Assembly (NCBI RefSeq): GCF_042100115.1 | Contig: NC_091274.1 | Coordinates: 310,001 to 374,000, forward strand | DNA from: Alternaria dauci | Lineage: Eukaryota; Ascomycota; Dothideomycetes; Pleosporales; Pleosporaceae | Direction of reading: 5' to 3' | DNA: 64,000 nucleotides | In this document: positions 1,353 through 31,264 of the stretch, in pieces | Position numbering within the stretch: position 1 is the stretch's first letter | How the letters are laid out: every line of letters starts with the position of its first letter | Position numbers and translations under genes: made by a program | Notes under the pieces: generated by a model | Seen by the model: only the letters and a program-made list of their open reading frames with translations | The model's database searches: none | Told to the model about the DNA's origin: nothing

Positions 1353-2354
1353 TCATGGACCCGGCAACACCGAGTCTTCGAGGGCCTTCATTATTTGCAT
1401 CGCCGTCCACGTCTCCATATTGAGCTGGACGGTGGTATTGTGTTTCTGCCATATGGTCGCCCCGTTGCTTGTGGACGCGGCTGTCCATCGTCGCAGCCCT
1501 GCCGTTGCTGGACTTTCTGCGAGTACAGTGTCGTGGACATCCTCCGAGGCAGAGTCTTCTCATTCCTTGAAGCCTTGTCATGTTGTTTGCAGCGCCGCCT
1601 GTCGTAGGATTCGCGATGGTTTCTGCAAGCTGCTTGACTCTACGCTGCGTCGCCCTTGATAGGTGAGTTATCTTCCTGCATCACCACGTTAGCATGTCCT
1701 TCATCAGAATAGTCGAGCCTGCGTAGTCTTACTCGTGGCAACTGCGTCGCTCGTGCGGAGGACTCGGTCAAGGCGCCCGGCTTGCAGTACCACCACCGTC
1801 AGGCGCGACGTGGTCTCGAGGGAGCAGCTGCGCGCGCCGCAGAGGCGGGGGATATTATATCCTTTGTGGTAAGATGTGCTCCCTTGTCAAAGCAAGGGCA
1901 GTGGCGAAGCTCCTTGTCCATGTCCGTCCTTTGTTCCTCTTCCGAGGGCTGTCCGCTTCTCGAGGCAGCCCCGCAACCCTATTGTCAGCGCGGTCTTGCG
2001 AAGCTCGAAGGCTCCCTCGACGTGATGGTAGGTATACAAGGCCGCTTCGCGCAGACTGTGAGCCTTTGATATCATTACCTGGATTGCGGGGTTCGCGACT
2101 CGGGGATTTGACACGAGGTTTCGACGATTGTAGGCATCTGGTTCTCCGCCGCGGGGTAATTCCAGAGATGCAGAGCTGGTCGACACAGAGCTTGGATCTG
2201 GACGTGGTTAACTTGCGTGAGGTGAACTTCTTCGTCAGCCCCCGAGTGCCTTACCGTGGGTCATAGCTGTCGCCGTTGGTGGCGGCGGAAGCGCCTCTGG
2301 AGCGGGCGCTGAGCCTCACCCCCCTCCGCTGGGGCCTTCAGGAGCAGACGACAT
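1353..2354 (-). CDS. Possible spliced or decayed gene of unknown function
   Basis: Not recognised. On the minus strand three open blocks have coding-like composition. Block one reads from an ATG at 2352-2354 (MSSAPEGPSGG), and a frame from about 2190 to 1890 contains ELPRGGEPDAYNRRN. The same frame continues to 1707 after a single TGA at 1887-1889. A third frame, 1559-1353, contains WTAASTSNGATIWQK and ends at a TGA. A canonical intron fits at 1676-1732 (GTAAGA donor, CTAAC branch, GCAG acceptor). I could not join all blocks into one clean model, so this may be a real multi-exon gene with an unresolved splice or a pseudogene. The plus-strand frames here are arginine/leucine-rich and look like shadows. 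Confidence 0.3.
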
Positions 2355-26829: not shown

Positions 26830-26838
26830 AAAAAAAAA
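26830..26838 (-). terminator. RNA polymerase III T-run terminator
   Basis: Nine consecutive T residues on the minus strand, nine bases after the 3' end of the tRNA-Arg gene, a normal Pol III terminator position. Confidence 0.75.
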
Positions 26839-26847
26839 GAAGATTTG

Positions 26848-26983
26848 TGACCTACGCAGGGATCGCTGTGAATGTTGTTAGAACGGCTGTTCGAATGGAG
26901 GTATCTTGGATGCTACTTACAACCTGCAATCTCTTGATATCGACGAATCGTAGTCAAGCGCCTTGCCATTGGGCCAGCAGGCC
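26848..26983 (-). tRNA. tRNA-Arg(ACG) with a 9-base anticodon-loop intron and a 55-base insert in the T-loop
   Basis: Reads from 26983 to 26848. Acceptor GGCCTGC pairs with GTAGGTC over seven positions (two G-U), then discriminator A. The A box TGGCCCAATGG fits the consensus TRGYNNARNNG. The anticodon stem CTTGA/TCAAG encloses CTACGA-A, anticodon ACG at 26951-26949. Intron one, 26947-26939, is nine bases between positions 37 and 38, the canonical eukaryotic site. Positions 49-55 read GCAGGTT; then a 55-base insert at 26920-26866 begins GTAAGT, contains TTCTAAC and ends CACAG; then CGATCCCTGC completes the T-arm. Removing both gives exactly 72 nt with all four stems intact. The layout of the D and variable regions is as in yeast tRNA-Arg(ACG). 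Confidence 0.82.
26866..26920 (-). other. Spliceosomal-type intron inside the tRNA T-loop
   Basis: Fifty-five bases, GTAAGT donor, CTAAC branch site twelve or so bases before the CACAG acceptor; length and signals equal those of the mRNA introns in this window. It lies between T55 and C56 of the tRNA and splits the Pol III B box into GGTT and CGATCCC. Confidence 0.7.
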
Positions 26984-28582: not shown

Positions 28583-31264
28583 ATGGCCGCTGCAATTATC
28601 CCACGAGCCTTCCTGGCCCCTGGACGATCGGCGTTTGCTGTAATCGATCCTATCACCGAACAATATCATCGTTTGCTGGACCAAAGTGGTGCGCTCCAGC
28701 TGGGCACGACTGGAAAGTCGGGCAGCTACTTCGCTATTTCTTATGTATGGAGCGACTGGAAAGAGACCGCTGAGGATAAATTCCCCAGCTGGAAACTGTT
28801 GCGAGAGCGCCTACTCATGCTCGCGACAACAGATCTTGCGACAAACCTTCTCAAGGCCCCCACTGATATTGCTGAAAGAATTCCACTTAAGCTATTTCAA
28901 CCAGACCCGTTTCGATGTTGGCTCGACTCAAAATGCATCGACCAAAACTCACTGGCGGACAAGATACACTGGATCCCGCGCATGAATGAGATCTATTTCG
29001 ATGCACGGTGCACCATCCTTTTGCTCAGAGACGTCGATCTTACAGCCCTTTATGAGCTGTTGAGGCTTATGAAGTGTCTCATAGCCGAGACCTCGCCCGA
29101 ATGGGTTTCCGACTCACACCGATGCCTGTTCACACCGAGTTGCATCTCTCTGGTGGCGTCGATTCCTCCATCACTTGAGCAGGCTTGCCTAGACAGCCTA
29201 GATGCTCTCTGGAAAGGATCATGGCGAAAGCGCGCGTGGATCTTCCAAGAGATACTTCTCTCCGCCCGATACATGTTAAGCTGGGGAGACAAATCCACTG
29301 TCGCTTACATGGAGCTTGGGATGGTCGGGCGGATAGCAGCTTTCCTCCATCAACGCTATCCGGAGAAGGCCTGGCTGCACGACTTTTGGTCTTGGTGCAA
29401 ACAATGTCACTGCCTTCGAGAATTTTACGCGAATAAACTTGACATGGAAGCGACTGTGTTGCAACTGGCCGAACATTTGGAGGCCACAGTCGCTTGCGAC
29501 AAGTACTACGCGCTGTGTGGAATTTTGAACTTGAAGGATGTTCTTTATAATGCGAACCATAGTGCCGAGGAGGCTCTTGACCAAGTGCTTTCTGCTCTGA
29601 CGAGACAAGGCAGAATGGGCTGGATGTACGCAATACCTCCCTGTGTTTCTGGAGCCGGAATTACCTTGTCCGATCGTTGCATGGCTCCATTCTTCCTGAC
29701 TCGCAAGAAGAGACAAACATCGGTAGGCTTTTACCAGGAGAGCTTCGTATCTGAAGACTTCATGGGGTTCACGGCGGTCGAGATGGGGTTTGTCCAGGAG
29801 GTGACTAGTCTTGAAACAGTCATTCGGCACCTGGGCAGCGGCGTGGGCTCACTATACGCGCAAGGAATCAAGGAAGAGTCCTTTCGAGGGTTATACGGGT
29901 CTTCACCCATTGCGGAGCAACTCTTGCCGGCAATCCTTCATCGATTGGGCTACGACACCATCGGCCCATTCCGCGAGCATATTCTTTTCGACCGGCTACG
30001 AACAGCCTTCGGAATCGCAGGGTCATCAAGCCCTCTGACTGGCACAGACACTGATGCCATGACGTTTTGGGAGATTGTAGTACGACTCTGCTTCGTCGAG
30101 ACCAGTTCCTTCGAAGGCAGCGATCCTTTGGGCCAGCAGCTCGTGCAGATGTCTGCAGATCAAGTGCAAAACCTTTGCAAGACACTGGTAAGCCAGGGGT
30201 GGTGTGTCGTGCACTGGCACACCTACGAAAAAGAGCCCAGAGCTCAACTAGCAGTCGCATTGCTTGACAAGCCCAGCGACGCCTACAAATGGGCTGGCAG
30301 AACGATGTGGTGTATCCGGACACAACGAAGCCAAGACTCTTTGTTGCTGGTTGGCGGCAGCGAAAGATCAAACGAGCCGAGAGATGATGACGAAAGTGAA
30401 ATGAGTATGACAAGAAAGCCCTCCACAACAAGCACACAGCTCCGTGATTCCGGGACGAAGTTCTATGGCATGGCTCTACAGGTGCCGAGGCTCCACACTC
30501 TTTCCAACTTTGCCCATCCCGTGAGCCACGACAACGCAGCTGAGCTGTACAGAGAAACTCTGCATCATCCGATGGTCGACGACGTCATTGGCACATTTGA
30601 GAGCTTCTCTACGTCAGTCGCAGATAGTTGGAATCGAAAGATCAAGTTCTTTCTAGTCCAGAGGCGGAGAGGCGTTGCGAATCCGACACCAGTTGTACAC
30701 CACGCCGATGCACTTGTCGACCTCGTAGGCCAGTGTGCGCATCTGGATATCTCGTTGGACAATGTGCAATCACCGGTCGTGTCGAACAATAGGACAGAAC
30801 GCGGGCCAAACTCTCAAGTGGACTACCTTGGTTCCATGTTTGCATCCCTAGACCGGGAGCTAGTCCGTGATGTTTTCTACAACTCTAGGTACGTTGTGGC
30901 AGTATCTCAATTCCACTTTGATCAAACTCTAATGCAGCAGAATAGCGACCTAGACGCCGCAATCGACTCTTGCTTGCAGTTGACAGATGCCGGTGTGGAT
31001 CAAACACACGACACAACCGGAACTGAAGATCTCTATGATGATTCTTCTTACAACTCTTTCGGCACCAATGACGCGCAGACTGCAGCCCTCATCGATTTTT
31101 CGTCAGACTCCGAATCTGGGTCACGATCACTAGTCTTGATTGATCTTTCACCCGATCATACAGGTGTAAAAACTACTTTGACGCATAAGGATTCCACAAC
31201 CTCGGCGGAGAAAGTGCATCTTTTAGCTTACAGTAGTAGTAGTCAACAGGATTCCTTGATATAA
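28583..31264 (+). CDS. HET-domain (heterokaryon incompatibility) protein
   Basis: Single exon, 893 residues. HET domains mediate non-self recognition and programmed cell death after hyphal fusion in filamentous ascomycetes. The N-terminal region shows the usual blocks: FAISYVWSDWKE near residues 48-59, CWLDSKCIDQNS near 112-123, MNEIYFDARCTILLL shortly after, then WRKRAWIFQEILLSARY. CDKYYALCGILN, typical of the region after the HET domain, follows further on. The rest has no recognised domain (no WD40, NACHT or ankyrin repeats). The C-terminal tail is Asp/Ser-rich and repeats a short pattern (ALIDFSSDSES, LVLIDLSPDHT). Whether it acts as an incompatibility gene cannot be told. Confidence 0.85.
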   Translation: MAAAIIPRAFLAPGRSAFAVIDPITEQYHRLLDQSGALQLGTTGKSGSYFAISYVWSDWKETAEDKFPSWKLLRERLLMLATTDLATNLLKAPTDIAERIPLKLFQPDPFRCWLDSKCIDQNSLADKIHWIPRMNEIYFDARCTILLLRDVDLTALYELLRLMKCLIAETSPEWVSDSHRCLFTPSCISLVASIPPSLEQACLDSLDALWKGSWRKRAWIFQEILLSARYMLSWGDKSTVAYMELGMVGRIAAFLHQRYPEKAWLHDFWSWCKQCHCLREFYANKLDMEATVLQLAEHLEATVACDKYYALCGILNLKDVLYNANHSAEEALDQVLSALTRQGRMGWMYAIPPCVSGAGITLSDRCMAPFFLTRKKRQTSVGFYQESFVSEDFMGFTAVEMGFVQEVTSLETVIRHLGSGVGSLYAQGIKEESFRGLYGSSPIAEQLLPAILHRLGYDTIGPFREHILFDRLRTAFGIAGSSSPLTGTDTDAMTFWEIVVRLCFVETSSFEGSDPLGQQLVQMSADQVQNLCKTLVSQGWCVVHWHTYEKEPRAQLAVALLDKPSDAYKWAGRTMWCIRTQRSQDSLLLVGGSERSNEPRDDDESEMSMTRKPSTTSTQLRDSGTKFYGMALQVPRLHTLSNFAHPVSHDNAAELYRETLHHPMVDDVIGTFESFSTSVADSWNRKIKFFLVQRRRGVANPTPVVHHADALVDLVGQCAHLDISLDNVQSPVVSNNRTERGPNSQVDYLGSMFASLDRELVRDVFYNSRYVVAVSQFHFDQTLMQQNSDLDAAIDSCLQLTDAGVDQTHDTTGTEDLYDDSSYNSFGTNDAQTAALIDFSSDSESGSRSLVLIDLSPDHTGVKTTLTHKDSTTSAEKVHLLAYSSSSQQDSLI

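Follow-up and report, generated by a model that had tools for sequence, protein, structure and literature searches.

Candidate spliceosomal introns in nuclear tRNA genes of Alternaria dauci

An interrupted tRNA-Arg(ACG) gene

On its reverse strand, the window (the whole 64,000-nucleotide stretch of DNA that was analysed) carries a tRNA-Arg(ACG) gene in which three exons are separated by two inserts. One of these is a short intron of tRNA type, and the other, 55 bases long and situated within the T loop, has the appearance of an mRNA intron. The features of the gene, all on the reverse strand, are as follows.

26848..26983, reverse: tRNA-Arg(ACG) gene of 136 bases, with three exons and two introns (letters and coordinates confirmed)
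26948..26983, reverse: exon 1, tRNA positions 1-37 (acceptor 5' strand, D arm, anticodon ACG)
26966..26976, reverse: TGGCCCAATGG, which from its consensus we take to be the A box; identical in all five gene copies
26939..26947, reverse: tRNA-type intron at 37/38, 9 bases, TTCGTCGAT
26921..26938, reverse: exon 2, positions 38-55 (anticodon 3' strand, variable loop, T-stem 5' strand, T54 and T55)
26866..26920, reverse: candidate spliceosome-type intron by its sequence motifs, 55 bases, between T55 and C56
26915..26920, reverse: 5' splice site GTAAGT, invariant across the five copies
26890..26895, reverse: TTCGAA, B-box-like core within the 55-base intron, invariant across the five copies, with a weak matrix score in the window copy
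26877..26881, reverse: branch-point motif CTAAC, its A 12 bases from the intron end
26866..26868, reverse: 3' splice site CAG
26848..26865, reverse: exon 3, positions 56-73 (T loop, T-stem 3' strand, acceptor 3' strand, A73)
26830..26838, reverse: T9 run resembling a Pol III terminator, 10 bases past the gene

The first-pass annotation had described an intron of 9 bases at 37/38 together with an insert of 55 bases that separates T55 from C56, and letters and coordinates agree with that account. Removal of both gives, as it had also claimed, a 72-nt tRNA-Arg, in which all 20 counted stem pairs are formed (7 + 3 + 5 + 5), two of the acceptor pairs being G-U. The mRNA-type motifs GTAAGT, CTAAC and CAG are likewise present in the insert at the spacing given above. 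On direct reading, any slide of the insert boundaries alters the joined T loop, and the gene's own internal B box is broken by the insert. The first-pass annotation, which dealt with one gene, mentioned neither this break nor TTCGAA. Comparison with neighbouring mRNA introns held up in part: 55 bases falls in the range of 45 to 73 bases shown by nine mRNA-intron candidates of the window with frame support (retention of two of these leaves the frame unbroken), while the claim of identical length was slightly overstated. Elsewhere in the window, a long open frame on the forward strand (28583-31264) encodes a protein with a HET (heterokaryon incompatibility) domain, for which Alternaria sp. RS040 supplies the nearest named match (76%). 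An Mpp10 protein of the window matches one from Alternaria alternata with 94% identity over 95% of its own length.

In its uncut form, the gene escapes common tRNA finders. ARAGORN reported no gene in bacterial mode without introns and missed it also with introns of up to 200 bases allowed (loci L039 and L046), and there were no Rfam matches at the gathering score. Since both tools miss the gene, the number of tRNA genes may be underestimated in such fungi. To gauge chance, every stretch of the window with the form GT..CT[AG]A[CT]..AG was removed in turn; among these 95 candidates (48 on the plus and 47 on the minus strand) only the 55-base insert left a tRNA called by ARAGORN across the junction, and the same procedure on 20 shuffles of the window gave none in 1571 removals.

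Five arginine copies and seven further genes

A homology search of the genome (34.9 Mb, 10 contigs) with the window gene returned five matches at E <= 0.001, three on contig C3 and one each on C5 and C9, and an exact search with the 14-mer of the anticodon arm led to the same five places. At 16 loci matching the 14-mer with one mismatch ARAGORN found no tRNA; nine loci with two mismatches were covered as well (266 matches in all). Each of the five nuclear tRNA-Arg(ACG) genes found carries the T55/C56 insert. An uninterrupted nuclear gene was absent among the homology-search and 14-mer loci examined, which form a partial tRNA census. The copy count proposed in the first-pass annotation thus yields five genes, all interrupted at the same place, and its concern that the window gene might be one decayed copy among many intact ones is not borne out. 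The sole uninterrupted ACG tRNA found (in locus L008) belongs to a dense cluster of mitochondrial-type tRNAs at C3:3344209-3399162 (L001, L002 and L008). This cluster lies within the 3.45 Mb contig C3, includes a TCA anticodon called SeC, and represents either a large copy in the nucleus or mitochondrial DNA that was fused to the contig during assembly.

Mature sequences of copies 2 to 5 are identical at 72 of 72 positions, while their T55/C56 introns are 62-81% identical as a whole and 54-77% in their cores (shuffled cores: mean 48%, sd 4%), and the 3' flanks of all five copies are 46-59% identical. The window copy (copy 1) differs from the others at six of the 72 mature positions. Because its changes are two-sided at pairs 7-66 and 49-65 and leave a G-U at 6-67, pairing is kept in all 100 counted stem cells of the five copies; a pair covariation statistic was reached by 22 of 500 shuffles, which with five related rows is weak by itself. 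Exon identity beside diverged introns, together with the paired stems of copy 1, points to selection on the exons. An ACG (inosine) tRNA is needed to read CGT, CGC and CGA codons. Within the five introns, invariance is confined to GTAAGTA and the following CA, to TTCGAA, to CAG and to one single column, and the branch motif is invariant except for one base. The 37/38 introns of copies 2 to 5 (L040 to L043) are 10 to 11 bases long and end in GTTCGAT, another B-box-like core, where the window copy has only TCGTCGAT. A run of at least four T within 80 bases follows four of the five copies, copy 3 being the one without. Copy 3 (L041 1383-1470, minus strand) lies 31 bases before a tRNA-Gly(GCC) gene (1502-1638, minus strand), and with no T4 run between them the two may form a dicistronic Pol III unit.

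Seven further tRNA genes with mRNA-type introns were read, bringing the totals to 12 genes and 14 introns, within a partial tRNA census and with one T54/T55 place beyond these.

Pro_TGG_1 (L064): GT-AG introns at 34/35 and at T55/C56
Pro_TGG_2: GT-AG introns at 34/35 and 54/55
Pro_CGG_1: GT-AG intron at 34/35
tRNA-Asp: GT-AG intron at 54/55
tRNA-Ile(AAT): GT-AG intron at 52/53
Lys-CTT_6: GT-AG intron at 57/58
tRNA-Arg(CCT): 51-base GT-AG insert at G53/T54

Over the whole set, inserts of 50 to 60 bases occupy 34/35, 52/53, 53/54, 54/55, 55/56 and 57/58. All 14 have GT..AG ends at exact exon boundaries, with GTAAG[CT] in 13 and GTTAGT in one, and all contain a CT[AG]A[CT] branch motif whose A stands 10 to 13 bases from the intron end. 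Twelve of them were met without selection for splice sites; the remaining two are the window intron, flagged by its motifs, and the T55/C56 intron of Pro_TGG_1, which came from a splice-site pattern. That T55/C56 pattern returned 20 rows in its GGTT form and 23 rows in a second form, six of the latter 23 being rows which are tRNA rows pairing 5/5 T-stem bases (at most four in the other 17); the sixth is tRNA-Pro(TGG), Pro_TGG_1. Rfam listed at least 58 tRNA matches (63 of 931 candidates scored), 41 of them outside the cluster on C3, and ARAGORN called 40 of these 41, the remaining one being tRNA-Arg(CCT). Two D-arm patterns matched 77 and 36 places, and 13 of 20 tRNA-like places chosen by eye proved to be tRNA genes, five with GT-AG introns and eight without; none of these 13 showed an insert of another type outside 37/38. 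Three more D-arm patterns matched 22, 37 and 1 places, mostly outside the read set. A pattern for T54/T55 introns found three places (none in a reversed control), two of them already known and the third at C1:299493-299554 (+).

With the GT-AG introns taken out, ARAGORN calls all 12 genes as tRNAs, 11 of them as expected: Arg(acg) five times, Pro(tgg), Pro(cgg), Asp, Ile, Lys and Arg(cct). The exception is spliced Pro_TGG_2, called Gln from a different placing of its 37/38 intron. Uncut, 11 of the 12 are missed and one is called Thr, so that none is correct, and removal of just one GT-AG intron, where two are present, turns the call into Glu for Pro_TGG_1 and into Tyr for Pro_TGG_2. A removal scan over 146 loci (295 distinct contexts), taking out one intron at a time, returned 12 rows, which correspond one to one to the 12 genes of this set.

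Uninterrupted genes of the same anticodon also exist for Ile(AAT), Lys(CTT) and Arg(CCT), and the interrupted copies of these three could therefore be silent. Removal of the insert from Lys-CTT_6 leaves a first part of 38 and a last part of 36 bases equal to those of the intact paralogue, indicating a clean insertion, and the interrupted tRNA-Ile is identical to its intact counterpart at 69 of 74 positions, with the differences in the T stem. In all three proline tRNA genes read (L064, L128 and L129), a GT-AG intron parts anticodon base 34 from base 35, and a separate intron at 37/38 follows three bases later. The proline anticodon of these genes would hence form only after spliceosomal splicing.

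Promoter elements and alternative readings

In nine of the 12 genes the B box is split, the splitting being due to introns between positions 54 and 58. A B-box matrix was built from 48 intact nuclear tRNAs (36 distinct), and intact genes score between 0.8 and 17.2 (median 15.3). The best matches inside the splitting introns, with shuffle P in brackets, are 11.8 for Pro_TGG_1 (0.004), 8.6 for Lys (0.024), 8.0 for both Pro_TGG_2 and Arg copy 5 (0.032 each) and 6.1 for Arg copy 4 (0.010), the best score among 25 intron-like stretches of the window being 4.9. Arg copies 2, 3 and 1 reach only 1.9, 1.9 and -1.8 (P 0.15, 0.22 and 0.62), and in copy 1 the best-scoring place is other than TTCGAA. For Arg copies 1 to 3 the matrix by itself thus gives no support, and the case is carried by conservation of TTCGAA, which, the 5' end aside, is the longest stretch kept unchanged across the Arg T-loop introns. 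The Asp intron lacks a TTCGA core, and its best score is -0.6 (P 0.24).

Counted by hand from the intron sequences, the core [AG]TTCGA occurs in eight of the nine B-box-splitting introns, or at four of five sites, compared with five of 139 intron-like control stretches and none of the five tRNA introns that leave the B box unsplit. Fisher's test on the four of five sites gives P 3.6e-5 against the 139-stretch background and 0.024 against the five non-splitting introns, to be read with the fact that this core was chosen after the Arg introns and the first Pro intron had been viewed; among those read later (Pro_TGG_2, Lys and Asp) two of three fit. A different arrangement is seen at Ile (52/53) and Arg-CCT (53/54), where the intron's own AG rebuilds an intact B box at the junction, GGTTCGACCCC scoring 16.7 in Ile and AGTTCGAGTCC 16.1 in Arg-CCT. 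Use of the in-intron TTCGA core as a promoter is suggested by these data rather than proven.

The bulge-helix-bulge motif has a core helix of four pairs, which would here join intron bases 2-5 to exon bases 2-5, and 0 of the 14 sites reaches four of four pairs (range 0 to 3). Excision at a bulge-helix-bulge is unlikely on this count and was rejected as a candidate. It is highly improbable that the T-arm inserts are cut by the tRNA splicing endonuclease at non-canonical sites with their mRNA-like motifs being incidental, although non-canonical tRNA introns do exist in Cyanidioschyzon merolae, nucleomorphs and archaea according to a review of tRNA introns (PMC4090602). The T55/C56 insert lies off the canonical endonuclease site 37/38, at which the separate 9-base intron does sit, and the conserved parts of the five Arg introns are mainly the splice motifs and TTCGAA. 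For the proline genes, another question is whether they instead encode tRNA-Thr(NGT) and contain a single long intron at 37/38, so that the 5' GT would be anticodon bases 35-36, as ARAGORN implies by calling uncut Pro_CGG_1 Thr(CGT) with an 87-base intron. This is unlikely. The three genes have what we take, from identity features, to be a proline-like body, and they carry C73, whereas the intact Thr(AGT) genes of the genome have a different body and A73; moreover, GTAAG[CT], CTAAC and AG occur at the right spacing, and removal of the intron yields NGG followed by G37.

Decay of the interrupted genes into pseudogenes, or their persistence as silent copies, would agree with the split B box in nine of 12 genes and with the uninterrupted genes for Ile(AAT), Lys(CTT) and Arg(CCT), but it is very unlikely as an account of the set. 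For Arg(ACG) it was rejected on copy number, exon identity and preserved pairing, given that no uninterrupted nuclear gene was found among the loci examined, that four copies combine identical exons with diverged introns and flanks, and that the stems stay paired across the intron. Somewhat more room, if still a doubtful option, is left for splicing as proposed with transcription relying on something other than a B box in the T-arm intron, for instance GTTCGAT in the 37/38 intron of Arg copies 2 to 5, a neighbouring tRNA gene (as with the tRNA-Gly gene that follows Arg copy 3), or the A box and upstream DNA alone. The missing TTCGA in the Asp intron and the weak scores of Arg copies 1 to 3 fit such an arrangement, while TCGTCGAT in the window copy and the invariance of TTCGAA speak against it.

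The preferred reading, very probably correct, takes the 55-base insert for a spliceosomal intron of the U2 type within a nuclear tRNA-Arg(ACG) gene that works, the intron being common to all five copies found and part of a wider set. It agrees with the first-pass view of a spliceosomal-looking intron, which is supported at sequence level by motifs, boundaries, restored cloverleaf and conservation. Pol III would transcribe the window gene by way of the A box and the B-box core inside the intron, the spliceosome would remove the T-loop intron in the nucleus, and the tRNA endonuclease would remove the 37/38 intron before or after that step. With mRNA-type introns in these genes, maturation would need both the spliceosome and the tRNA splicing enzyme.

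Related systems and biological meaning

The U6 snRNA gene of S. pombe is transcribed by Pol III and contains a short mRNA-type intron holding a B-box match, which would make it the nearest mechanism to the one proposed. In both cases, a Pol III small-RNA gene bears a short intron of spliceosomal type, known here from sequence. In contrast to S. pombe U6, the hosts are tRNAs, many genes are concerned, their own B box is split in nine of 12, and they often contain a tRNA-type intron as well. An intron in U6 of the same genome was considered and discarded on the basis of the two full-length matches, each of which covers the entire model in 100 uninterrupted bases; two weaker matches exist besides. 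At C1:5437718-5438105, about 230 bases from a full U6 gene and on the other strand, there is a short, weak U6 match of 61 bases (44.4 bits). Introner-like elements of Dothideomycetes are a case of recent spliceosomal intron gain in this class, and the introns described here would resemble them as spliceosomal intron gains in Dothideomycetes. As the source of the window intron an introner repeat was rejected, because the gene with its intron used as query matched only the five Arg(ACG) paralogues in the genome at E <= 0.001. Fungal nuclear rRNA genes also have mRNA-type introns in a non-coding RNA, as the title of a 1993 paper indicates, but there the transcript is made by Pol I and is not a tRNA.

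Canonical 37/38 introns are present in the same genes (9 to 11 bases in Arg-ACG), and the inserts differ from them in lying elsewhere in the tRNA, in their length of 50 to 60 bases and in their mRNA splice motifs. Position in the T arm and more than one intron per gene are shared with C. merolae, nucleomorph and archaeal tRNA introns, the archaeal ones including sites 53/54 and 56/57, according to the review cited above (PMC4090602). It attributes C. merolae and archaeal introns to the tRNA endonuclease and bulge-helix-bulge motifs, states that the cutting of nucleomorph tRNA introns is unknown, and says that eukaryotic tRNA genes with short insertions in the D or T arm are mostly supposed to be pseudogenes, C. 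merolae and nucleomorphs excepted (PMC4090602). Unlike in C. merolae and archaea, no bulge-helix-bulge motif fits the sites found here. The main text of the review contains no word beginning with "spliceosom" (PMC4090602). Outside this genome, the pattern GATTCCAGGTTGTAAGT occurred in one viral and five bacterial contigs, and the tRNA is absent from all six stretches read around these matches. No precedent for spliceosomal introns in nuclear tRNA genes appeared among the titles and abstract openings listed from open-licence papers. Spliceosomal introns and Pol III genes bearing them are already known; tRNA genes bearing them were not known to us.

Nuclear tRNA introns are described, in the same review, as being cut by a dedicated protein endonuclease and mostly at 37/38 (PMC4090602). 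Should the genes described here be live, tRNA precursors would be substrates of the spliceosome, the supply of tRNA would be coupled to pre-mRNA splicing, and one tRNA would need two unrelated splicing machines. With paralogues that have and lack the intron (Lys and Ile), and with introns that break or rebuild the internal promoter, the set also offers a natural experiment on intron gain. The B box could be open to such introns because they bring along a substitute promoter core or restore the box with their own 3' AG. In this lineage, spliceosomal introns have probably entered a substantial share of the nuclear tRNA genes, among them all copies of one essential tRNA as well as proline anticodons, and protein synthesis would then rely directly on the spliceosome to process transcripts of Pol III.
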